NCBI GenBank assembly: GCA_018238155.1
Contig: JABCTZ010000017.1
Location: forward strand, 116,949-180,948
Origin: Candidatus Heimdallarchaeota archaeon
GTDB lineage: Archaea; Asgardarchaeota; Heimdallarchaeia; JABLTI01
DNA length: 64,000 nucleotides
Direction: 5' to 3'
The notes under the pieces were generated by a model, which had not been told where the DNA came from, did no database searches, and saw only the letters and a list, made by a program, of their open reading frames with translations. Within the stretch, counting starts at the first letter, position 1; each line of letters opens with the position of its first letter. The translations under genes were made by a program, and so were the position numbers. This document shows, in pieces, positions 413 through 64,000 of this stretch.

Positions 413-518
413 AGGCCTGTAGCGCAGTTAGGATAGCGCACTTGCCTTCTAATCAGTTCACTTGGTGATCTGAGAAGTAAGTAAGGGGTCGAGGGTTCAA
501 ATCCCTCCAGGCCTGCCA
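413..518 (+). tRNA. tRNA-Arg (UCU) with intron, CCA encoded
   Basis: The acceptor stem AGGCCTG (413-419) pairs with CAGGCCT (508-514). The D stem GCGC (422-425) pairs with GCGC (436-439). The anticodon stem CTTGC (441-445) pairs with GTAAG (481-485), and the T arm is GAGGG/TTCAAAT/CCCTC (491-507). Anticodon TCT is at 448-450. An intron of about 28 nt (about 452-479) sits at the canonical archaeal 37/38 position and would be removed by the splicing endonuclease. The discriminator is G515 and the CCA is encoded at 516-518. Confidence 0.93.
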
Positions 519-9098: not shown

Positions 9099-10031
9099 AT
9101 GTCATTCGGTAAAAATACTAGCAAACTAACATACCTCCTTATTACATTAATTTTTGTTGGAACAGGTTTTGGTGTCTTTATTGGTTGGATTGCTTTTAAT
9201 GATGGAAACGGTGGAGATACATATATCTTAAATGTTCAAGGCTCCACCACAGTAGAAAAAATATGTACCTTGTCTGCAGTTCCTTTTATGGAAGCTCATC
9301 CTAGTGTTCAAGTAACGATTTCAGGTACAGGCTCGGGAACAGGAATTGGTACACTTATCAATAGTCAATGTGACATTGCAATGGCTTCCAGAACAGTAAA
9401 ATCAACTGAAAATGATACCGCACATACAAGTACAGGTGTTTGGTTGAGACAATTTACAATTGCAAAAGATGGATTGGCGATAATTATTAATGACGACGTT
9501 ACTAGCATTTTAGATCTCAGTGAAGATACAATCAAGGCAATTTTTAACGGCACAATTTCTAATTGGAGTGATACAGCTTTACCAGATGTAGGTTTATCCA
9601 GTGAAATTCAAGTAGTGGTTAGAGAAGAAGGATCTGGTACAAGAGATACCTTCAATGAATTAATAATGGGTGATGCAGATCAAGAATTCGCAGACAGTCA
9701 ATATGTTGGCGATGCTTTGCCTATGACTAGTAATCAGATGATTTTCGATGAAGTAAATACTAACCCCCAAGCAATCGGTTATGTTGGACTTGGGTATCTT
9801 GGTGACGGCGTTGAATCAGTACATGTAGATGGCGTTGAACCAACTTTTGAAACAGTAGTAGATGCAACATATTCTATTCAAAGAGAACTTTACCTAGTAA
9901 CTTTAGGTGACCCTGAAGTTGGGTCATTAATATGTGAATATGTGAATTGGCATTTCAGCCCAGACGGACAATATTTTGTCTTTGATTCTGGGTTCATAAA
10001 TATCTTACCTAGACGAGACAATCTAATATAG
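9099..10031 (+). CDS. pstS: Phosphate-binding protein PstS, copy 1
   Basis: The protein starts MSFGKNTSKLTYLLITLIFVG, with one uncleaved-looking membrane anchor (residues about 10-32) followed by the PstS periplasmic-binding fold. NVQGSTTVEK, SGTGSGTGIG and REEGSGTRDTF are the phosphate-contact loops. The frame is open 51 codons further upstream, but the ATG at 9099 aligns exactly with the start of the second PstS and is chosen. No lipobox cysteine is seen, so anchoring is by the N-terminal helix. The protein catches phosphate outside the cell for PstC/PstA. It is a close paralogue of 11327-12259. Confidence 0.93.
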   Translation: MSFGKNTSKLTYLLITLIFVGTGFGVFIGWIAFNDGNGGDTYILNVQGSTTVEKICTLSAVPFMEAHPSVQVTISGTGSGTGIGTLINSQCDIAMASRTVKSTENDTAHTSTGVWLRQFTIAKDGLAIIINDDVTSILDLSEDTIKAIFNGTISNWSDTALPDVGLSSEIQVVVREEGSGTRDTFNELIMGDADQEFADSQYVGDALPMTSNQMIFDEVNTNPQAIGYVGLGYLGDGVESVHVDGVEPTFETVVDATYSIQRELYLVTLGDPEVGSLICEYVNWHFSPDGQYFVFDSGFINILPRRDNLI

Positions 10032-47945: not shown

Positions 47946-48054
47946 GGACGAGTGGTCTAGCCTGGCATGACGCTTCCTTGACGACGATAAAAAATTGCGA
48001 TTTTTGTCGGCTGAATGGAGGCTATCGAGAGTTCGAATCTCTTCTCGTCCACCA
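47946..48054 (+). tRNA. tRNA-Val (GAC) with intron, CCA encoded; attachment site of the element behind it
   Basis: Acceptor GGACGAG (47946-47952) pairs with CTCGTCC (48044-48050). The D stem is GTC/GAC (47955-47957/47969-47971). The anticodon stem CTTCC (47973-47977) pairs with GGAGG (48017-48021) and the anticodon GAC is at 47980-47982. The T arm GAGAG/TTCGAAT/CTCTT covers 48027-48043. The intron (about 47984-48015, 32 nt) is at 37/38. Discriminator A48051, CCA 48052-48054. The stop of the next gene begins two bases later, so the tRNA end looks like an integration site. Confidence 0.9.
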
Positions 48055-48505
48055 ATTATTTTCTTCTTTCTTGTTTTCTATATCCTATTATTCCGAGAAT
48101 ATTTTTCTCTATGAATTCTTTTGTATCGACCCCTTCCATCAATCTCTCTTTTATTTCTTCTCTTATTTTTTCTTCCCCCTCTTCTCCTATTTCTCTATAT
48201 TTTCTTGTTCTCTCTTTTTCTTCTCTCTCTAGTTCTTCTTCTACTCTTCTCTTTCTCTGCGTTAGTTCTCTTATCTCTTCTCTTTTTTCTTTTTCTTGAT
48301 ATGCAGGCTCATTGTAATAATTCCACATTCTCTTCACTATTTCATTCTCTTTGTTTAGTGAGTATTTCCTTTTCTCATGTTTTAGTATCCCTTCTTTTGT
48401 TCCTTTTTGCAATTTCTTTATGAGCGTGCTTTTTTCCCAAGGCATTTTTTCTAGTAGTTCTGCTAGCGAGTATTTTTTCGAGTGTCCTCTCGTTATTTTT
48501 TCTTT
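48055..48505. repeat. Copy 1 of a repeat of about 450 bases, directly behind tRNA-Val
   Basis: These 451 bases match 59182-59623 at high identity with one larger gap of about 15-20 bases near 48200/59340. Both copies begin immediately after a CCA of a tRNA or tRNA fragment. The repeat covers the C-terminal three quarters of the gene at 48056 and ends inside it. Confidence 0.9.
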
Positions 48506-48634
48506 TACGAATTCATTTGCTATTTGATATAGTATTTCTCCTTCTTTTTTCCTTATTTTTTTTATTTGCTCCACTACCTCCTTTCTTTCTTCTGTTTTTT
48601 TCGTCAATATTTCTAGTTCCTCTGTTATTGTCAC
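48056..48634 (-). CDS. HTH and coiled-coil protein of the tRNA-adjacent element
   Basis: 192 residues, extremely rich in Glu, Lys and Arg. Residues about 55-95 (KYSLAELLEKMPWEKSTLIK) look like a helix-turn-helix; residues 100-165 are a long charged coiled coil; the end (ILGIIGYRKQE) is hydrophobic. It starts with GTG at 48634, eight bases behind GAGG. The stop is two bases from the tRNA CCA. Two relatives exist: a disrupted copy at 59183 and a C-terminal fragment at 61535, both also directly behind a tRNA fragment. It may bind element ends, but that is inferred from position. Confidence 0.75.
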   Translation of the reverse strand: MTITEELEILTKKTEERKEVVEQIKKIRKKEGEILYQIANEFVKEKITRGHSKKYSLAELLEKMPWEKSTLIKKLQKGTKEGILKHEKRKYSLNKENEIVKRMWNYYNEPAYQEKEKREEIRELTQRKRRVEEELEREEKERTRKYREIGEEGEEKIREEIKERLMEGVDTKEFIEKNILGIIGYRKQERRK

Positions 48635-50594: not shown

Positions 50595-51206
50595 TCACTC
50601 ATTTGTTTCTGACCAAAACCTGTTATACGTTTCTTCTCTTCCTATTCCTTCATCATAATTTGCATATACTCCTATTCGAAAATTCTGCAATGCTTCCTCA
50701 ACAATTTCCTCTGTTGAGCTATTGCTATTTTCATAAGTCGTTTTTGAGAAATTCTCTACTAATTCAACAATATCTCCCTCAGTTATTTTCTGTAGGATAG
50801 TATCAATTTCTTTGTCTTGTTCCTGATAGTTATTATTGAATTCCTTAGTTAGAACGATTTCTTTCTCAATTCTCCCTATTTCTTTAAGGAGATCTGTTTT
50901 CAATTCTTGTTCTGATTCTGCATAGCAAAAACATGGATCGATAAATGCCATTCTAGAATATAGTTCATTATTTGTTAGCGTGTGTTTTATCCACAGTTTA
51001 TTTTCCTTCTTCTTTGTTATCATTTTCTCTTTTTCTATCAAAGAATCTATTGCTACTGCAACTGACTTTTCGTGTCGATTAATCTCACAAGCAAGCCCTT
51101 TTCGACCTCTAACATACCATTCCCCTTCACCCTTTATTTCTCTCAGAACAAAGAACCAAATAATTTCTACTTCCACTTTATTCAAACGTTCAAAATTATC
51201 AATCAA
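50595..51206 (-). CDS. Winged-helix-like protein of the element, unknown function
   Basis: 203 residues. The first 80 look like a winged helix (WYVRGRKGLACEINRHEKSV and AIDSLIEKEKMITKKKENKL). The rest is acidic and helical with no known domain. It is the first gene of the leftward block 51206 to 48056 and shares its charged composition, although less extreme. A regulatory role within the block is possible. It is divergent from the Cas4-like gene with about 80 bases between them. Confidence 0.65.
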   Translation of the reverse strand: MIDNFERLNKVEVEIIWFFVLREIKGEGEWYVRGRKGLACEINRHEKSVAVAIDSLIEKEKMITKKKENKLWIKHTLTNNELYSRMAFIDPCFCYAESEQELKTDLLKEIGRIEKEIVLTKEFNNNYQEQDKEIDTILQKITEGDIVELVENFSKTTYENSNSSTEEIVEEALQNFRIGVYANYDEGIGREETYNRFWSETNE

Positions 51207-51284: not shown

Positions 51285-52064
51285 TTGTTCTTTAAAAGGA
51301 TAATTTTCCAGTGTTTATTGAGAAAATTGCTTGAGAACGATTTCATCCTTAGTAAAACTGGTTTTATTGCCTACTTAGAATGTCCATTCCAGTTCTATCT
51401 ACAGAAGGAACTACAACATCACAAAGGATCAGGTGGAAACATTGATCACTCTGGATATGAATCCTTTTTACAGAGAGGTCTGGAAAAACACAAATGGTTG
51501 GAATGTTTCTATCAAGAGTATGGAACAAAAATAAGGAATGATGTTTATCCTAGATTAGACCAATCGGATGAAGATGCTTTTTGGAAACAACAATTCATAG
51601 ATTTTGAAATTAAACGATATGTCTCAGAGCCTAAATTTTGGGAACCTGTAGCAGTGGAGTATTATTTGAACGATGGAGTTTTTTGTGGGAAAATTGATCG
51701 AATTGATAGAATAAGTGATTTAGGTCATTGCCGTATAGTAGAATATAAATCGTCTCCGAAAGAATTCGATAAAGAAGAATTACTTTTCTATGCAGTTCTT
51801 TTAGCAAGTCAGTTACCTACTTTGGATTTACCAGATATTACTAAAGTGACTGAGTTAGGCATGTATTATTATTCATCTTCAGAATATTTTTCAACATTAA
51901 TTACAATGGACAATATTGTTACTTTTAGAGAGTATCTTGAAGAAATACTCCTGGAAATAGTAAATCCACAATCAATCAAAAAGAAAAAAAGATGTGATTT
52001 TGCTGTTACTACTTGTCTTTTTAGGCATATTTGCCAAAGAATTAACATTAAAAACAGAAAATAA
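51285..52064 (+). CDS. Cas4-like PD-(D/E)XK nuclease with iron-sulfur cysteines
   Basis: 259 residues counted from a TTG at 51285; the real start may be the TTG at 51318 or 51330. All Cas4/RecB features occur in order: C33 in YLECPFQFYL, H69, E125 in VAVEYYL, D138 in GKIDRID, E153 and K155 in IVEYKSSP, the helix ELLFYAVLLA, and C237, C244 and C250, which with C33 would hold a 4Fe-4S cluster. Cas4 proteins are ssDNA exonucleases that trim CRISPR prespacers; similar nucleases also occur in casposons and viruses. It is close to the Cas1-like gene, but there are no other cas genes. Confidence 0.82.
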   Translation: MFFKRIIFQCLLRKLLENDFILSKTGFIAYLECPFQFYLQKELQHHKGSGGNIDHSGYESFLQRGLEKHKWLECFYQEYGTKIRNDVYPRLDQSDEDAFWKQQFIDFEIKRYVSEPKFWEPVAVEYYLNDGVFCGKIDRIDRISDLGHCRIVEYKSSPKEFDKEELLFYAVLLASQLPTLDLPDITKVTELGMYYYSSSEYFSTLITMDNIVTFREYLEEILLEIVNPQSIKKKKRCDFAVTTCLFRHICQRINIKNRK

Positions 52065-54221: not shown

Positions 54222-54923
54222 CTAAAGTGACACTTTCTCATTAGCTTTTTCAATTAGCCAATTCATGTCAAGAATTTCTAAAGAATCAATGGCAAAGATT
54301 TCAATACCAGCTTCCCAAAGAATAAGCCCAATTCCTTGAGCTGCAAAACCTAGTTTACCTGTGATGTTTACTTTTAATTTTTGAGTGATTGTATCATAAT
54401 AATTCTCTAAATAAAAATCACGCAGAAATCGCATTTCAATAGATGAAGATGAATTATTCCTTAGATAAAGAGCTCCTGCGAGTATGACTTGATCTGTGTC
54501 TTCTGCATTGATTGTTAGATCAGTAAAAATCTGTTGTGTTAGGTTGGCAATGTCTACAGAATGCTTTGCTAATACCCAATACACTCGGGCACGAACACTA
54601 GGGGATATATCAATGATTAATGGAGAAATATATTGTACACTTTCTTTCTGTTGAAATGATTCAAGATAGAGTACGGATTTTTCTCGTAGAAAGCTTTCAT
54701 GATGTGATAGGAGCTTTTGTGAAATAGAAATTTTTACCTCTTCAGATACCTTCTTCTTTGCTATGAGAAAGTCTAACAAGGTGTTAAGTTGGGGTGCTGT
54801 TAGAGAACTCAAAGTATTCTCATATAACTCCTCAAATTCTTCTAAATTATCTTCTACTAGGAGAATTTGTTTAAAGATTATTTCCGGAATTGTTTCTTGA
54901 AGTTTTTTCTGAAGAAAGGTCAT
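54222..54923 (-). CDS. HEAT-like alpha-solenoid protein
   Basis: 233 residues, almost wholly helical. Repeats of about 35-40 residues can be followed (LREKSVLYLESFQQKES, then SPSVRARVYWVLAKHSVD, then DTDQVILAGALYLRNNSS), which resemble HEAT repeats. No catalytic motif. It starts ten bases behind the stop of the dual-nuclease gene at 54934 on the same strand, so it is probably its co-transcribed partner. Solenoids commonly scaffold proteins or DNA. The family was not recognised. Confidence 0.68.
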   Translation of the reverse strand: MTFLQKKLQETIPEIIFKQILLVEDNLEEFEELYENTLSSLTAPQLNTLLDFLIAKKKVSEEVKISISQKLLSHHESFLREKSVLYLESFQQKESVQYISPLIIDISPSVRARVYWVLAKHSVDIANLTQQIFTDLTINAEDTDQVILAGALYLRNNSSSSIEMRFLRDFYLENYYDTITQKLKVNITGKLGFAAQGIGLILWEAGIEIFAIDSLEILDMNWLIEKANEKVSL

Positions 54924-58528: not shown

Positions 58529-58584
58529 TTATACACTGAAAAATTTTCTTTAAAAACAACAAAAATTGAATGTTTGGTAGTTCA

Positions 58585-58610
58585 CGGTTCAAATCCGGGA
58601 TCGCCCACCA
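58585..58610 (+). repeat. tRNA 3' fragment a
   Basis: The T loop, the 3' T stem, the acceptor strand ATCGCCC, discriminator A and CCA are present (TTCAAATCCGGGATCGCC core). No 5' tRNA half lies upstream. The following bases are pyrimidine-rich (TTCTCTTTTC). It is the left border of the HicBA unit. Confidence 0.9.
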
Positions 58611-58629
58611 TTCTCTTTTCATTCTTTTC

Positions 58630-58866
58630 TTATAATTGCTCATAAAATTCGTCTAGAGTGATTTTTGCTAATCGTAGTGCTCCTCTCAAAGTTCCTGTTT
58701 TTAGTTCTTTATGTAGTGGAACTACGGTACCAACTTTCCCCTCATTTGTTTGCTTAGAGAGTCGAACATGACTTCCTTTCCTTCCTGAGATACTAAACCC
58801 AAATTTATTACATAGAATTTTGATAACTTTTTCACCTGAAACAGGTTTATACTTTGGCAGTCTTAT
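58630..58866 (-). CDS. hicA: HicA-family mRNA interferase toxin with a non-standard start
   Basis: 78 residues at most: LPKYKPVSGEKVIKILCNKF, then the catalytic-histidine strand RKGSHVRLSK and TVVPLHKELKTGTLRGALR, with the end ITLDEFYEQL. This is a complete HicA double-stranded-RNA-binding-like fold with the active histidine in GSHVRL. No ATG, GTG or TTG begins the conserved part; the frame is limited upstream by a TAG at 58867-58869, so an ATA at 58864-58866 or CTG at 58858-58860 must serve. It overlaps the end of hicB by 20 bases, allowing translational coupling. Confidence 0.8.
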   Translation of the reverse strand: MRLPKYKPVSGEKVIKILCNKFGFSISGRKGSHVRLSKQTNEGKVGTVVPLHKELKTGTLRGALRLAKITLDEFYEQL

Positions 58867-59083
58867 CTACTCCCTTTGGTGAAACTTCAAAAGTAGTGAT
58901 TATTGGATGAGTGTCAGTTGTTAGTGGGAACTCTTCGAGATATAATTCTGTTGCTTCCACTAAATTTTCTAGTGCTTTCTCAATTGTTTTTCCCTGACTT
59001 ACTGTGCCTACTTGAGGACATTCTGCAACGTACATATCCTCTTCTTTGTAGATAACTGCTGTCAATGTAGACATCTTTATCAT
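58847..59083 (-). CDS. hicB: HicB-family antitoxin
   Basis: 78 residues. The HicB signature is AVIYKEEDMYVAECPQVGTVSQGKTIEKALENLVEATELYLEE in sequence order; pieces shown are MYVAECPQVGT and KALENLVEATELYLEE. It neutralises HicA. The upstream side has TATA-like TTATAAAAACC at 59117-59127 on the opposite strand and a GAGGT Shine-Dalgarno before the ATG. Gene order is antitoxin then toxin. The whole operon fits exactly between fragments a and b. Confidence 0.9.
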   Translation of the reverse strand: MIKMSTLTAVIYKEEDMYVAECPQVGTVSQGKTIEKALENLVEATELYLEEFPLTTDTHPIITTFEVSPKGVDKTAKV

Positions 59084-59155
59084 TTTGTACTACCTCACTA
59101 TTATTCTTTAATTTTCTTATAAAAACCAAACTCTTATTTTAAATCAGGAAGTCCC

Positions 59156-59181
59156 CGGTTCAAATCCGGGATCGCCCACCA
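59156..59181 (+). repeat. tRNA 3' fragment b
   Basis: Same 26-base core as fragment a, identical through CCA. The similarity to fragment e extends left to GGAAGTCCC (from 59147), that is to the 3' strand of the anticodon arm and the variable loop. Directly behind the CCA begins the second copy of the long repeat. Confidence 0.92.
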
Positions 59182-59623
59182 ATTATTTTCTTCTTTCTTG
59201 TTCTCTATACCCTATTATTCCGAGAATATTTTTCTCTATGAATTCTTTTGTTTCTATCCCTTCCATCAATCTCTCTCTTATTTCTTCTCTTATTTTTTCT
59301 TCTTCCTTTTCTCCTATTTCTTTATATTTTTTCGTTATCTTCTTTTTCTAGTTCTTGTTCCAATCTTCTCTTTCTCTGCGTTAGTTCTCTTATCTCTTCT
59401 CTTTTTTCTTTTTCTTGATATGCAAGTTCATTGTAATAATTCCACATTCTCTTTACTATTTCATTCTCTTTGTTTAGTAAGTATTTCCTTTTCTCATGTT
59501 TTAGTATCCCTTCTTTTGTTCCTTTTTGCAGTTTCTTTATGAGCGTGCTTTTTTCCCAAGGCATTTTTTCTAGTAGTTCTGCTAGCGAGTATTTTTTCGA
59601 GTGTCCTCTCGTTATTTTTTCTT
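59182..59623. repeat. Copy 2 of the long repeat of about 450 bases
   Basis: Matches 48055-48505 base for base over long runs. It begins behind the CCA of fragment b, as copy 1 begins behind the CCA of tRNA-Val. The match stops abruptly near 59623, where the gene in copy 1 goes on, so this is a recombination border. Confidence 0.9.
59183..59623 (-). pseudogene. Truncated and frameshifted copy of the HTH/coiled-coil gene at 48056
   Basis: The order KKYSLAELLEKMPWEKSTLI, then REEIRELTQRKRRLEQELEK matches the protein at 48056 from residue about 45. The frame breaks at about 59330 after LEKEDNEKI; the rest (KYKEIGEKEEEKIREE to IIGYREQERRK) continues in another frame to a stop at 59183. The first 44 residues are missing and replaced by unrelated sequence. 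So the copy is a remnant left next to its tRNA fragment. Confidence 0.85.
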
Positions 59624-59744
59624 GTAAAACACTATTCTTTTTGATATTGTGCAATATTGTTATAAACACAAATAATTAATAGTATATTCCTCACATTTTT
59701 TAAATACTCTAATGTGAGATTTGAGTAAAATTGAGAGTGTAAGA

Positions 59745-60740
59745 ATGTCACTAACTGAGAACTCTAATTTTCCTAATTTTTCTTATTCAGATGCAATGTT
59801 GTTTTCTGTTCCCAAAGGTGATCTTTATCCGATTGGTTTGTTAACTGATAAAAAACAATCTGGAAAAAGAAATGATTTAGATATTAAGATAAAGATTCTC
59901 TCCGAGCTTAGAAATAGTTTAGATGAAACTGGAAATAATATAATAACCGAAATGCCTCTTCCTGAAAGATTTTCTAAAGCTAACGTTCTTGAAAAGTGGT
60001 TATTAAACACAAATCAATATTTCAATAAGGTTGAGGATGAAATATCCGCTGAAAAAGATTCCTCTTTTAGTTTACTCATTGAAACTCTTGAGCTTAAAGA
60101 AAAAATTGAATATAAAGTTCAAACTAATAATTATCAAAATATTGATCGCTTAATTAAACTCTATGATCGGAAATTAATTGATGCGTTTAAACTTATTTAC
60201 AAATTAATGCTATCAATCCGAACTAATTTGAGTATAATGTTTCTTGATTCAGAACTTCCCCCCGAATTTATTTCCACTATAAGTAATACAATGAACTCCT
60301 CATTAACTTTTATTGAATTTCTTCAATCTGAACAAGATTCAATTTTTGTTGATTTAAATAAATATAAATCCGGACGAACAACTGTAAAAAGAACTAAACC
60401 AATTTTAGCTAGAATTGATGCATTAGATGAAGATCATAATAAATTGCTGCTAAATTTCCAAAGATTGCTTTTCTTCATAGAAATTTGGAATTCCCCAACC
60501 TTGGAAGTATTATTCACTGATCAAGACATCCATTATGATATTAAGAATTTTGAATCCCATCAAGGATTTTTCATTAATTCATTAAATAAATTGAACCAGT
60601 TTGCAAAAGATTTTCATCACAAGGTAATAAATGCTGCTATGGAACGCAAACAATCCATCCCATTTTCACTAAAGGAAAAGGATTCAAGGAAAGACGATGA
60701 TGCTATCTCTTTATTTGCAAAAATAATTCACTCCTATTAA
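59745..60740 (+). CDS. Helical protein of unknown function, partner of the PIN gene behind it
   Basis: About 331 residues starting MSLTENSNFPNFSYSDAMLF. A TATA-like TTTTTTAAATA lies at 59696-59705, which would put transcription start at about 59726-59730, so the ATG at 59745 is preferred to a TTG at 59721. The sequence is mostly helical with hydrophobic heptads and no recognised motif. It is followed 19 bases later by a PIN-domain gene with a Shine-Dalgarno-like GAGAGGTATGGG between them. The two probably form one operon, perhaps a two-gene toxin or defence pair, with this protein as the antitoxin or adaptor (inference). Confidence 0.7.
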   Translation: MSLTENSNFPNFSYSDAMLFSVPKGDLYPIGLLTDKKQSGKRNDLDIKIKILSELRNSLDETGNNIITEMPLPERFSKANVLEKWLLNTNQYFNKVEDEISAEKDSSFSLLIETLELKEKIEYKVQTNNYQNIDRLIKLYDRKLIDAFKLIYKLMLSIRTNLSIMFLDSELPPEFISTISNTMNSSLTFIEFLQSEQDSIFVDLNKYKSGRTTVKRTKPILARIDALDEDHNKLLLNFQRLLFFIEIWNSPTLEVLFTDQDIHYDIKNFESHQGFFINSLNKLNQFAKDFHHKVINAAMERKQSIPFSLKEKDSRKDDDAISLFAKIIHSY

Positions 60741-60759
60741 GATATGAGAGGTATGGGAA

Positions 60760-61491
60760 ATGAAGTATGTTTGTTTTGACACAAACTATCTCTTGGCTGT
60801 TTTAATACCACTAGATAATTGGAAATCTGTAATTAAGATGTGTGAAGCTGAAATTGCCGAACTTGTTAATAGAAAGAAAATTAAAGTTTTTATTACTGAT
60901 AAAGTTGAATCCGAAGCTAACAATAGGATAATGGATATTTCCAAGAATGCTTCCCAACATTTTAGAAAATTATTTCATAAATTGAAGTCTACTGATTTAA
61001 AGAAGCCTTTTAATAAATCAAGCATTTTGAGTTTACGAAAAGAATTACAATTAATCTTAAGAGACGAAAATGACAAAGTGATTAGAAATCAACTATACTT
61101 CTATGAAGATTATCTTTTAAAAAATATAAATGATTTTCCTAAAAAACCCAAGAAGATTCTAATTGCTGAGTGTTTGAGTGAAATAAATGAAATTTCATTG
61201 AGATTTGATACTGAGTTGCAGGTTTACAATATAATGATTATTCAAAAACCAACTATTCAAAATGAACTTGATAAACTCAATGCAATAGAAAACAGAATAA
61301 AAGTTATGGTTCATAATTATAGTGATAGCGAGATTTTAGCCACATTTATTTATTTTATAAATGAAGAAAATGTTGAAGGGATATTCGTTACTCATGATTT
61401 TGTTGATTTATTATTAAACAGTTTATATCTTGAAGAAGAATTTAAAGAAGTTCATATAGTTAGACCACAATATGTAAAATTCCTTGTTTAG
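60760..61491 (+). CDS. PIN-domain nuclease-like protein
   Basis: 243 residues, larger than usual VapC (about 130-150). D7 is in YVCFDTNYLL, the second acidic region is FITDKVESEANNRI, and the C-terminal acidic sites are in DSEILATFIYFI and IFVTHDFVDLL. The additional middle of about 100 residues is helical. PIN proteins cut RNA with a metal cluster formed by these acids. Its neighbour at 59745 is the only candidate partner. It ends just before the decayed fragment f. Confidence 0.75.
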   Translation: MKYVCFDTNYLLAVLIPLDNWKSVIKMCEAEIAELVNRKKIKVFITDKVESEANNRIMDISKNASQHFRKLFHKLKSTDLKKPFNKSSILSLRKELQLILRDENDKVIRNQLYFYEDYLLKNINDFPKKPKKILIAECLSEINEISLRFDTELQVYNIMIIQKPTIQNELDKLNAIENRIKVMVHNYSDSEILATFIYFINEENVEGIFVTHDFVDLLLNSLYLEEEFKEVHIVRPQYVKFLV

Positions 61492-61507
61492 TTTTTTCAA
61501 TTATTTA

Positions 61508-61531
61508 GTACTAAATCTGAATCGTTCAACA
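61508..61531 (+). repeat. Decayed tRNA 3' fragment f
   Basis: CTAAATCTGAATCGTTCAACA aligns with TTTAAATCTGGGATCGCCCACCA of fragment e with one missing base and several changes. It lies three bases before the stop of the gene fragment at 61535, the same position that the tRNA-Val end and fragment b have relative to their relatives of this gene. Alone it would not be convincing; position supports it. Confidence 0.5.
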
Positions 61532-61534
61532 CTT

Positions 61535-61861
61535 TCATTCTTTTCTTCTGTATCCTATTGCTTCTAGTGTTTTTTTCGTTACAAGTCCTCTTACTTCTCC
61601 CCCCTCAACAAATTCTGCAATTATTTCCTTTCTAAATTCCTCTTCTTCTTTCTTTGTTGCTTCTCTATATTTTCTCCTTTTCTTTTTCTCTTCTTTCTCC
61701 AGTTCTTTAACCAATTTTCTCTTTTTTTGTATCAAGGTCCTAATTTCTTCTGTTTTTTCCTTTTCTTGATAGTTTGGTTCATTGTAATAGTTCCATATCC
61801 TTTTCACCAATTCATTTTCTTTCCTTTTATTCTTCACTAACTGTAATATATCCTTCTCCAT
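61535..61861 (-). CDS. C-terminal-type relative of the 48056 HTH/coiled-coil protein
   Basis: 108 residues: ENELVKRIWNYYNEPNYQEK, KEKKKRRKYREATKK and VTKKTLEAIGYRRKE match the last 100 residues of the protein at 48056 in order at moderate identity. The N-terminal HTH half is missing; the upstream part belongs to the overlapping gene at 61827. It is a shorter version or remnant. The level of change is much larger than in the 59183 copy, so it is an older event. Its stop sits next to decayed fragment f. Confidence 0.65.
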   Translation of the reverse strand: MEKDILQLVKNKRKENELVKRIWNYYNEPNYQEKEKTEEIRTLIQKKRKLVKELEKEEKKKRRKYREATKKEEEEFRKEIIAEFVEGGEVRGLVTKKTLEAIGYRRKE

Positions 61862-62144
61862 TTTTAAATCCTATATCTCGGAAATAGGTAATTTGAGATC
61901 GAAAATATTCTTGATTATAGTTGATTTTTTCAATAACAAACTCAATTAAATCTTCAGAAGGATTTTGTGCAATAAATTCTTTTAATAACTCCCTTTGTTG
62001 TTGTAAAATAAAATTTATTTCACTAACTTTCTCAATATGGGAAAGAATTTCATCATTCAAAATTTTGAATTGTGTTAGTAAATAAGATGTATCCAAAGTA
62101 GTATCTCCATATCTATCAATAATGAATTCTTTATATTTAAACAA
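61827..62144 (-). CDS. Small protein of unknown function
   Basis: 105 residues, helical: IEKVSEINFILQQQRELLKE is a likely coiled coil. It overlaps the start of the next leftward gene (61861) by 35 bases, which suggests that the two were one gene or are translationally coupled. No domain was recognised. Fragment c lies 32 bases before its start. Confidence 0.5.
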   Translation of the reverse strand: MFKYKEFIIDRYGDTTLDTSYLLTQFKILNDEILSHIEKVSEINFILQQQRELLKEFIAQNPSEDLIEFVIEKINYNQEYFRSQITYFRDIGFKNGEGYITVSEE

Positions 62145-62175
62145 AAGCAGTATTGAAATGTTGATTTATTCTTCC

Positions 62176-62201
62176 CTGTTCAAATCCGGGATCGCCCACC
62201 A
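62176..62201 (+). repeat. tRNA 3' fragment c
   Basis: TTCAAATCCGGGATCGCC core plus CACCA, one change from fragments a and b near its left end (CTG in place of CGG). Behind it is a pyrimidine-rich run (TTTTCTTTCTCTC). No 5' half is present. It is the left border of the RHH-PIN unit. Confidence 0.88.
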
Positions 62202-62232
62202 TTTTCTTTCTCTCTTTTTTTCTCTCCTAGCA

Positions 62233-62268
62233 AGTACTATTGTTTTTATAGTACAAAAACAGTACTAT
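62233..62268. promoter_or_regulatory. Operator with three GTACTAT half-sites over the TATA region of the RHH-PIN operon
   Basis: AGTACTAT at 62233-62240 and 62261-62268 are direct copies; ATAGTAC at 62248-62254 is the inverse, so an inverted and a direct pair are formed. TTTTTATA (62243-62250) is the TATA element. The ribbon-helix-helix antitoxin that follows most likely binds here and represses its own operon, as is general for such antitoxins. Confidence 0.65.
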
Positions 62269-62293
62269 TTTAGTGATTAGTTGAGGTGGTATT

Positions 62294-62530
62294 TTGACTA
62301 CAATATCCGTTTCATTAGACGAAGAACTTCTTGAATGGTTAGATCAGCTTATTGAACGTGGTGTGATCAAGTCTCGTAGTGAAGCCGTTCGTGGTGGAAT
62401 TTTCTCTTATGTTCAAGAAAAGCTTGGTATTTCTTCTCGAGCTGATTTACGTGAGTTTCTTAAGAAACAGCAACAGAAACCTTTTCAATCTGGTGTTGAA
62501 GCAATTCGTTCAGTGAGGCAAGAAGAATAA
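62294..62530 (+). CDS. Ribbon-helix-helix (CopG/ParD-like) antitoxin
   Basis: 78 residues: TTISVSLDEELLEWLDQLIE then SRSEAVRGGIFSYVQEKLG, the beta strand and two helices of a ribbon-helix-helix domain, followed by a toxin-binding tail. The start is TTG at 62294 behind GAGGTGGT. Its TAA overlaps the ATG of the PIN toxin by one base. It should hold the toxin inactive and repress the operon from the GTACTAT sites. Confidence 0.88.
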   Translation: MTTISVSLDEELLEWLDQLIERGVIKSRSEAVRGGIFSYVQEKLGISSRADLREFLKKQQQKPFQSGVEAIRSVRQEE

Positions 62531-63009
62531 TGGCTCTTTATCTGGACACCAATGTCTTCTATCATGCTTATTGTCCTATTGAAGATGCTTCGATAGTTGA
62601 TTGGTTATTTTCTCAGGTTCATCCTGACTTTCCTGCTATTACTAGTGAGTGGTGTCTTATTGAGATGTTTCGAGCCTTCAAAAAACAAGTAAATTTGGGA
62701 ACTATCTCAGAAAAAAATGCTGAAATAGCTATTGACTTTTTTTTGAGTGATGTTGGAGAGATGGTTAAGAAAAAGCTCCTTTTACTTGCTCCCGTTTCTC
62801 ATGCTCTTCTTATTACTTCTCGAGAACATATCTTTGCTTCCAATCTATATGCTGCTGATGCCTTACATGCTACTACTGCTCTAAAATATAAAGCTAGAGC
62901 TTTCATTACTTTTGATTCTGACTTTAAATCCAATCTCAAATCCATGCCTATTTTTAATCCCTCTTCTCAAAATTTCAAAGCAAGTATTGGTAAATTGTTA
63001 TCAATTTAA
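62530..63009 (+). CDS. vapC: VapC-like PIN-domain toxin
   Basis: 159 residues. The four acidic positions are D6 in LYLDTN, E45 in CLIEMFR, D110 in AADALHA and D129/D131 in TFDSDF. VapC toxins are metal-dependent ribonucleases cutting tRNA or rRNA. It is translationally coupled to the antitoxin. The stop is 22 bases before fragment d, so the unit c-d contains just this operon. Confidence 0.9.
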   Translation: MALYLDTNVFYHAYCPIEDASIVDWLFSQVHPDFPAITSEWCLIEMFRAFKKQVNLGTISEKNAEIAIDFFLSDVGEMVKKKLLLLAPVSHALLITSREHIFASNLYAADALHATTALKYKARAFITFDSDFKSNLKSMPIFNPSSQNFKASIGKLLSI

Positions 63010-63031
63010 TCAATATAGAAAAAAGCTTCCT

Positions 63032-63056
63032 CGGTTCAAATCCGGAATCGTCCACA
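63032..63056 (+). repeat. tRNA 3' fragment d, partly changed
   Basis: CGGTTCAAATCCGGAATCGTCC followed by ACA. Relative to a and b it has two substitutions and one missing C in the CCA region. It is followed by AATTATCTTTTCT, close to the bases behind fragments b and e. Confidence 0.82.
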
Positions 63057-63057
63057 A

Positions 63058-63528
63058 TTATCTTTTCTCTTGTTTATTGTATTCTTCCCATAAAATTATA
63101 TTGAATTTTTCGTTTATGCTCTCTATTATATCATTCCACTCATCGTGCACTTTCTTCTTTAGTTCTTTATCTAGTGTTAGCATTCCCTCTGCGTAATAAA
63201 CTGCTGTTGCAACCATTAAACAATCAATATGATCACTGTGACTTTTTCGCAGTTCGCTAGCTAATGCTTGTATTTCTGCATAATGTATGGGAATAATTTC
63301 TATTTTTTCTAGGTATTGTATTGCCGTAATTCCCTGTGTTAATTCTTCAGTTGATATCTTCTTCTTATTGACTAACTTGCTTCCTTTTGCAGACACTTCA
63401 AAAATCACCAACTCTGATCTGATGATCACTTCGTTTTCCATTAGTTCTAGTATTGCTTTTCTTGGGAATTGTACAATATCTACAGCTAAAAATGGCATAA
63501 AGAAAGAGCTATCCAATAACAGTTTCAT
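63058..63528 (-). CDS. vapC: VapC-like PIN-domain toxin, second system
   Basis: 156 residues. Acidic positions D6 in LLLDSS, E44 in VIFEVS, D99 and D102 in SDHIDCL and D120 in LTLDKEL match the PIN pattern. The C-terminal tail of about 35 residues is charged. It overlaps the antitoxin gene by four bases (ATGA). Unrelated in sequence to the PIN protein at 62530 beyond the domain. The stop almost touches fragment d. Confidence 0.88.
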   Translation of the reverse strand: MKLLLDSSFFMPFLAVDIVQFPRKAILELMENEVIIRSELVIFEVSAKGSKLVNKKKISTEELTQGITAIQYLEKIEIIPIHYAEIQALASELRKSHSDHIDCLMVATAVYYAEGMLTLDKELKKKVHDEWNDIIESINEKFNIILWEEYNKQEKR

Positions 63529-63758
63529 TTCTCTGTATCCTTGCTTAACTTCCTTCTATGTTCTTTGAATTCTTCAAAGGTAATTGTGACTTTTGCTGGT
63601 TTTTCCAATAATTCTTCAGGTGTTGCAACCTTTTCTACCACTAATCTTCCTTGCACTATTCTGTACAAAACTCTTTGACCTTTTTTTAGTCCTATTTTTT
63701 CTCTGACTTTTTTAGGTGGAAATAACTCACCTTTAGAACCTACTTTACCTATAGACAT
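63525..63758 (-). CDS. vapB: AbrB-type (VapB) antitoxin
   Basis: 77 residues. The N-terminal 45 form an AbrB barrel (GKVGSKGELFPPKKVREKIG and KKGQRVLYRIVQGRLVVEKV); the tail TFEEFKEHRRKL would wrap the toxin. GGTGA stands before the ATG, and TATA-like TATAAAAACC is at 63790-63799 on the complementary strand. The promoter motif matches that of HicBA, as if cassettes share a promoter type. Confidence 0.9.
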   Translation of the reverse strand: MSIGKVGSKGELFPPKKVREKIGLKKGQRVLYRIVQGRLVVEKVATPEELLEKPAKVTITFEEFKEHRRKLSKDTEK

Positions 63759-63823
63759 AATTTCACCAGATAAACATTCTTTTCTCTGGTATAAAAACCT
63801 TTCATAAAATCTTTGGAAGTCCC

Positions 63824-63849
63824 TGGTTTAAATCTGGGATCGCCCACCA
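63824..63849 (+). repeat. tRNA 3' fragment e
   Basis: TTTAAATCTGGGATCGCC plus CACCA. Two C-to-T changes in the T arm relative to a and b (T stem still pairs: CTGG with CTGGG-side shift). It shares GGAAGTCCC to its left with fragment b. Followed by TTATCTTTTCT. Confidence 0.88.
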
Positions 63850-63858
63850 TTATCTTTT

Positions 63859-64000
63859 CTACTCTTCTTTTTTCTTGATTTCTTTTGCTATTTCCTCTAT
63901 TGATAATTCTTTTAACCACTCTTTTCTTTCGTATAATCCCCTTCCCCTTTTTCGAACATTTGCAAAAATCGTATCATATCTGTTACTCCTAGTTCTCTTT
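63859..64000 (-). CDS. C-terminal part of a gene running off the right edge
   Basis: A leftward frame without stops from the edge ends at a TAG (63859-63861). Visible residues include RYDTIFANVRKRGRGLYERK and, at the end, ELSIEEIAKEIKKKEE, a helical basic segment. No family can be named. It begins the next unit after fragment e, with its stop about ten bases from the CCA, the same layout as the other leftward units. Confidence 0.55.
   Translation of the reverse strand, partial: KRTRSNRYDTIFANVRKRGRGLYERKEWLKELSIEEIAKEIKKKEE

Follow-up and report, generated by a model that had tools for sequence, protein, structure and literature searches.

The 64,000-nucleotide stretch analysed here, called the window throughout, belongs to contig C13 of a Candidatus Heimdallarchaeota archaeon genome of 4.08 Mb (G000; its relatives are G001 to G006), and its final part is a tRNA-anchored cassette array: a row of gene units set apart by copies of the 3′ end of a tRNA-Val gene and headed by a predicted member of the Cas1 family, the integrases of CRISPR spacers and of casposons, that is likely to place units of gene size at that 3′ end. 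The array begins at 48055, directly behind an intact tRNA-Val(GAC), has a first unit of 10.5 kb and runs off the end of the contig at 64000 (Table 1).

The initial annotation had recognized five tRNA 3′ fragments in one orientation, and their 28-nt cores are confirmed at 58583-58610, 59154-59181, 62174-62201, 63030-63057 and 63822-63849. The 28-mer scan found nothing in a control of 213,398 bases, made of reversed or complemented sequence. A 25-nt pattern with 3 mismatches allowed occurs at seven places in the whole G000 genome, the five fragments and intact tRNAs on contigs C3 and C16, and its reverse nowhere; the 3′ end of a control tRNA-Arg (window 491-518) matches itself and one other intact tRNA only. 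No 5′ tRNA half precedes any of the five, by scan for two and by reading of the sequence for three. A sixth, decayed fragment proposed at 61508 has a gapped score of 7, which 41 of 275 background stretches also reach and which is thus at chance level, and was dropped as a sequence-based claim; context alone favors it, as directly behind it lies a decayed copy of the small coiled-coil gene, CC, that adjoins the tRNA in the first unit. The pyrimidine-richness noted behind the CCA holds, with C or T making up 86% of the first 15 bases in 19 Val fragments, and it is clearest in tRNA-Ala arrays where the majority sequence is CTTTCTTTTCTNTTTT.

The intact tRNA was expected to carry the acceptor GGGCGAT and to be reached by extending the contig. 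It is already within the window and its acceptor is GGACGAG, pairing 7/7 with CTCGTCC (the anticodon GAC was read by eye). Of 28 positions in its 3′ end, 10 or 11 do not match the five fragments, and because of this a genome-wide search of G000 for intact tRNA-Val with the fragment sequence does not recover it; the bases behind its CCA do match those behind the fragment ending at 59181. As homology to the tRNA begins about 5-8 bases before the T stem, Val and Ala arrays have a repeat of about 33-36 nt, running from near the end of the anticodon stem through variable region, T arm and acceptor strand to CCA; for tRNA-Leu, with its long variable arm, the repeat is 42 nt. A very similar box, ACGAAAGATTCAWAAAGAAAA, is present upstream of tRNA-Val (L068 about 9893-9920) and of tRNA-Ala, and is perhaps a common promoter. 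Inspection by eye of the tRNA-Val(GAC) of G002:C88 (L070:9887-10024) shows an apparent second insert, a possible T-loop intron, besides that in the anticodon.

The protein encoded second in the first unit, of family A1, has an N-terminal winged helix, a Cys-rich middle and a predicted C-terminal Cas1 domain. Direct sequence searches with it against Pfam, NCBIfam and PDB gave only winged-helix families above or near cut-off, and hence it is called Cas1-like by way of its relatives, of which P0023 and P0025 exceed the Pfam Cas_Cas1 cut-off, and of its fold: the AF2 (AlphaFold2) model, with a pLDDT of 83.5, has a Cas1 fold by Foldseek and VIA, and alignment gives the triad E387/H468/D481. An A1 profile search of PDB gave no Cas1 match, and a scan of viral contigs with A1 found no relative. 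For a second divergent family, A2, Pfam gave nothing at E ≤ 0.01 and sequence search of PDB nothing credible; fold and alignment give its Cas1 assignment with conserved metal ligands. Both A1 and A2 are predicted to be Cas1-family integrases with conserved metal ligands. Open frames of 1,200-1,400 aa, larger relatives, match the A1 profile in separate stretches (G002:C16:13672-15453, G000:C19:25259-26956 and G000:C17:167782-168288).

Short units bordered by such repeats were sought in other genomes and found: with G000 included, five genomes hold 30 complete units in ten stretches, each flanked at either end by a repeat of one and the same tRNA, and their sizes range from 267 to 16,390 bp. Five of the 30 (8.0-16.4 kb) have a Cas1-like gene, and each of these follows an intact tRNA directly; no such gene is in the other 25 (0.27-7.3 kb). 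By the author's count a toxin- or antitoxin-type gene, judged by Pfam cut-off or close homologue, is present in 11 of these 25: HicA, RHH-PIN (three genomes), PIN-AbrB (two), AbrB-PIN, DUF3368, UPF0175 and DUF5615-DUF433 (two). DUF3368, UPF0175 and DUF433 are presumably members of toxin-antitoxin systems. Other Cas1-less units carry FeoAB or a GajB-like UvrD helicase, the FeoA-FeoB ferrous iron transporter pair being within a 4.1-kb unit of the G006:C55 tRNA-Val array (L075:10437-12709).

The Cas1-headed repeat layout is not confined to tRNA-Val, as in G000 it is also at tRNA-Ala and tRNA-Leu. At 11 tRNA loci with repeats or module the first unit is visible, and in seven it has a Cas1-like gene (G000:C13, C43, C6 and C11, G006:C110, G005:C217 and G002:C88, the last two without a distal repeat in view). 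Among seven loci with close A1 relatives the module adjoins an intact tRNA at four (G000:C13, C43 and C6, and G005:C217); the remainder have a Val-type fragment (G003:C20), a 5′-half-like piece only (G005:C364) or 3′ fragments on the far side (G004:C48). At five of ten A2 loci the side where a tRNA 3′ end is expected does hold one (G000:C11, G006:C110, G004:C33, G005:C145 and, with a partial A2, G004:C19); G003:C235 has sufficient room and no tRNA 3′ end, and the other four are under 4 kb from a contig end. Pieces resembling tRNA-Arg are present on Cas1-module contigs as a lone 5′ half on G005:C364 (L117 about 9460) and lone 3′ fragments on G004:C48 (L118:17849-17876, L136:615-642), and on G004:C19 an intact tRNA read as tRNA-Glu(TTC), another host site, is followed about 0.5 kb later by a truncated A2 module (L134:12934-17600). 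Assembly contigs end in or beside arrays (window 64000, G000:C36, C21:1-900 and C43:1-155), so that arrays are probably under-counted in draft genomes.

G001, G004 and G005 share with G000 the genes that precede tRNA-Val, and G003 shares one partial gene, pointing to one chromosomal locus; the Val array is followed by tRNA-Ala in these four relatives, with its own repeats in G003 and G004. The right flank of the G000 locus is probably on contig C21, with an Ala repeat at position 873. At this same tRNA-Val locus the units and their order differ between relatives, and the case that was to tell against repeated insertion, identical fragments with invariant cassette content, was sought there and not found. 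In G003 the RHH-PIN unit is the one next to the tRNA, in G000 it is the fourth unit and in G006 it is in the interior of the array; PIN-AbrB is distal to it in G000 and proximal in G006, where the left repeat of the pair was not seen. The span between tRNA-Val and the final Ala repeat measures about 7.4 kb in G004, and in G000 it exceeds 15.9 kb. The tRNA-Ala of G001 is nearly empty, with homology to the G004 flank beginning 34 bp behind the tRNA; in G004 the distance is 3.56 kb with two repeats between, and 2.2 kb separate the last repeat from the shared flank. Comparison of the orthologous tRNA-Ala arrays G000:C11 and G006:C110 reveals in the latter an extra repeat-bounded 1,030-bp DUF433-DUF5615 unit, with about 0.8 kb of further difference beside it. 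The RHH-PIN DNA of G000 is 95.5% identical to that of G006 and 91.0% to that of G003; the yardsticks are 84% for one flanking gene shared with G003 (224/549 bases) and about 82-93% between G000 and G006 around tRNA-Ala. As this excess over the flanks is too small, horizontal transfer of single cassettes is not claimed.

The earlier proposal that repeated insertion at one tRNA site had built a cassette array fits the variable units and order in the relatives, and its passing mention of casposases, no more than a hint, gains from a linked integrase that relatives and fold place in the Cas1 family. The toxin-antitoxin modules may, as was also proposed, be passengers that stabilise the array. The Cas1-like protein would insert units at the 3′ end of the tRNA gene, each insertion copying the tRNA end of about 35 nt so that the repeats would be target duplications, and the small units without an integrase may be moved by it in trans. 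At least one small unit, that at 59181-62174, contains the ruins of earlier full Cas1 elements whose cargo survived. The casposase of Aciduliprofundum boonei integrates at the 3′ end of tRNA-Pro, where it requires a short border and the T-loop motif TCAAATC (PMC6614799); tandem casposons are known (PMC6563490). Such casposase-like logic, if the duplication were longer and inverted repeats were dispensed with, could build arrays. Intact Val fragments carry TCAAATC and Ala fragments TCAAATT, a weak pointer because such a loop is common to tRNAs. Distal fragments are more decayed (exploratory p 0.005-0.014, without and with the 61508 fragment, single-fragment arrays contributing nothing), which agrees with array growth at the tRNA.

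Several observations weigh against insertion of units at the tRNA by the Cas1-like protein. The Cas1 unit is still first in the array, contrary to simple growth at the tRNA, and therefore later arrivals may have used inner repeats or come in by recombination. The tRNA-Val 3′ end differs from the fragments in G000 and also in G003 and G004, which simple duplication does not predict; these block changes suggest that the 3′ end can also be exchanged for sequence from incoming DNA. Four elements, with ends deduced from the repeats, have no clear terminal inverted repeats (uncorrected p: E1 0.066, E2 0.44, E3 0.18, E4 0.014), and the repeat exceeds the 14-15-bp casposon duplication. No fully clean empty site was found at either tRNA-Ala locus compared (G000/G006 and G001/G004), and no excised circle was seen. 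The first unit lacks a Cas1-like gene at four of the 11 loci, the Val and Ala loci of G003:C229 and of G004:C19, the G004 Val unit being a decayed module. Near six distant A1 loci (G000:C42, G003:C162, G004:C91, G005:C374, G006:C122 and G006:C78, three of these contigs being under 9 kb) no tRNA end was found. To these is added the LAGLIDADG-like family, present in all five complete Cas1-bearing units. The search for tyrosine recombinases covered G000 only, with PF00589 only, and gave two Phage_integrase matches; these are on contigs C8 and C19, where no array was found, and C19 has an A1-related frame about 45 kb from its match.

It is possible, if on balance unlikely, that full-size Cas1 elements were inserted serially in tandem and then decayed, the small units being surviving scraps that were never independently mobile. 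The unit at 59181-62174 has two decayed CC genes, one right behind the repeat as in the intact element, and the first unit of G004:C19 retains only the Cas4-like gene and broken LAGLIDADG pieces. Serial decay is harder to reconcile with RHH-PIN units that at 851-856 bp are constant in size in three genomes, among different neighbours and with no trace of a module, or with two pairs whose order is reversed between G000 and G006.

A different enzyme may instead be responsible. Cutting of the tRNA 3′ end by a LAGLIDADG homing endonuclease, with spread by break repair and recombination and some other role for the Cas1-like protein, would account for the LAGLIDADG-like gene in 5/5 complete Cas1-bearing units, and a Heimdallarchaeum element beside tRNA-Arg carries a homing-type endonuclease (PMC8813620); yet the match here is weak and below cut-off, homing requires homologous flanks and alone would not yield arrays of unrelated units, which makes it improbable. 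Slightly more improbable is a tyrosine recombinase acting in trans through att-site recombination, the usual origin of tRNA islands, with the Cas1-like genes as cargo. Its att recombination would yield block exchange of tRNA 3′ sequence, and tandem arrays made by tyrosine recombinases are known (PMC6563490), but neither PF00589 match in G000 is on an array contig and two divergent Cas1-fold families are both at tRNA ends. The reading of the fragments as 3′ halves from split, trans-spliced tRNAs, which their common strand, CCA and missing 5′ halves might suggest, is hardly credible: it is disfavored by the intact tRNA-Val(GAC) in the window and five relatives, and up to seven variously decayed fragments are present in one array.

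Table 1. Features of the tRNA-Val array of the window, in order of position (CC, small coiled-coil gene).
Feature	Coordinates	Strand	Evidence
Intact tRNA-Val(GAC) with intron, array anchor; CCA encoded	47946..48054	+	Rfam tRNA 42.6 bits at 47946-48051
CC, 192 aa, end abuts tRNA	48056..48634	-	56%/49% identical in C43/C6 elements
Predicted Cas1-fold integrase, family A1, 627 aa	48652..50535	-	relatives, fold, triad
203-aa protein common to three G000 elements	50595..51206	-	40-46% identical in C43, C6 elements
Cas4/RecB-like PD-(D/E)XK nuclease	51285..52064	+	PDDEXK_1 E 5.6e-16; PADLOC Cas4 E 4.5e-5
LAGLIDADG-like protein, 549 aa	52512..54161	-	LAGLIDADG_3 E 0.0028, weak, below cut-off
HEAT-repeat-like protein	54222..54923	-	weak match E 0.081; homologue in C43 element
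NERD-nuclease-like protein, 700 aa	54934..57036	-	NERD E 6.2e-4, below cut-off; homologue in C43 element
RadA/Rad51-like recombinase, 369 aa	57419..58528	-	Rad51 E 2e-51
Repeat 1, tRNA-Val 3′ end, ~35 nt (core 58583-58610)	58576..58610	+	fragment scans
HicBA-like cassette	58630..59083	-	HicA 58630-58863, HicA_toxin E 2.3e-13; HicB-like 58847-59083, below cut-off
Repeat 2	59147..59181	+	fragment scans
Decayed CC gene, remnant of earlier Cas1 element	59186..59669	-	85% identity over 110 aa to 48056-48634
Unit of two genes, one for a 339-aa protein and one with a weak PIN domain	59721..61491	+	PIN_12 E 0.0027, below cut-off
Second decayed CC gene, behind doubtful 61508 fragment	61535..61861	-	93% identity over 92 aa to C43-element CC
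Repeat 3	62167..62201	+	fragment scans
RHH-PIN cassette	62294..63009	+	RHH_1, PIN over cut-off; same unit in G003, G006
Repeat 4, partly decayed	63023..63057	+	fragment scans
PIN-AbrB cassette	63058..63758	-	PIN over cut-off, AbrB-type just below; same gene pair in G005, G006
Repeat 5	63815..63849	+	fragment scans
Start of further unit, cut by contig end	63850..64000	.	contig C13 ends at 64000

The module identities first given to the small cassettes stand for HicA, RHH and both PIN toxins, which pass the Pfam cut-offs, and less firmly for the HicB-like and AbrB-type partners, which are below theirs; what was called a two-gene PIN unit does have two genes, with the PIN match a weak one. The HicA frame (58630-58866) has no ATG, GTG or TTG from the upstream stop to its conserved part, and HicA may start at another codon or be coupled to hicB.

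Two divergent predicted Cas1-fold families thus head rows of tRNA-3′-end-bounded gene units in Heimdall-group archaea. If Cas1 moves the units, the path from the integrase of a single transposon to ordered arrays of repeats and inserts becomes testable, with a system of one protein, one tRNA target and one donor unit, and there would be an explanation for the archaeal gathering of toxin-antitoxin and defence genes and for contig breaks at tRNA genes in some assemblies of these archaea. A bolder interpretation, offered tentatively and open to considerable doubt, is of a Cas1-Cas4 gene-capture system in which Cas1-family integrases of this archaeal genus grow arrays of whole-gene cassettes, with the tRNA as leader and its 3′ end, including the T-arm palindrome, as repeat: a living relative of the casposon-to-CRISPR step that would store genes where CRISPR stores spacers, and the Cas1 equivalent of an integron.

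Among known systems, casposons of family 2 such as AciBoo-C1 of A. boonei share a Cas1-family integrase with an E/H/D triad, predicted here, and a tRNA 3′ end as target, here tRNA-Val, -Ala and -Leu in G000 as judged from the repeats. Some casposons are reported with Cas4-, NERD- or HEPN-type genes and in tandem insertions (PMC6563490). Casposons have a duplication of 14-15 bp and inverted repeats, in contrast to the arrays here, with ~33-42 nt, no clear inverted repeats and rows of integrase-less small units; unlike casposons, the window element has no family B DNA polymerase among its 9 open reading frames scanned with Pfam (the C43 and C6 elements were checked by homology, with a few frames there unscanned). 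Aloposons, HeimM2 and HeimV of Heimdallarchaeum also have a Heimdall-group host and insert at tRNA genes but are giant-protein or viral elements (PMC8813620); ‘Cas1’ occurs 0 times in the main text of that paper, and in a literature search with subscription journals mostly outside its scope no paper was found on Cas1 or casposons at Heimdall tRNA arrays.

CRISPR adaptation by Cas1-Cas2-Cas4 has a counterpart in the predicted Cas1 fold beside a Cas4-like nuclease, and CRISPR arrays in the ~35-nt direct repeats with an internal palindrome, here the T arm, that adjoin an anchor and have units between them; their spacers are short, even-sized and unique, whereas here there are genes of 0.3-16 kb and the repeat is a tRNA 3′ end, with no Cas2 match in the window element. 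The SSV-type islands and tycheposons, tandem tRNA islands of tyrosine recombinases, also have tRNA 3′ direct repeats and arrays at one tRNA, but PF00589 matches are absent from the window element and from the other G000 array contigs. Integrons, where toxin-antitoxin cassettes occur as they do here, similarly have one-module units bounded by a repeated site, an integrase near the start and variable order. The likeness drawn to them at the outset does not go beyond logic, as theirs is a tyrosine integrase, of which none of integron type is in the window element, and here an integrase predicted to be of the Cas1 family would act at a tRNA 3′ end, on units whose mobility is presumed. By the features tested these elements are not casposons, CRISPR arrays or integrons; sharing logic with each, they are classed here as a new variant of Cas1-integrase elements.

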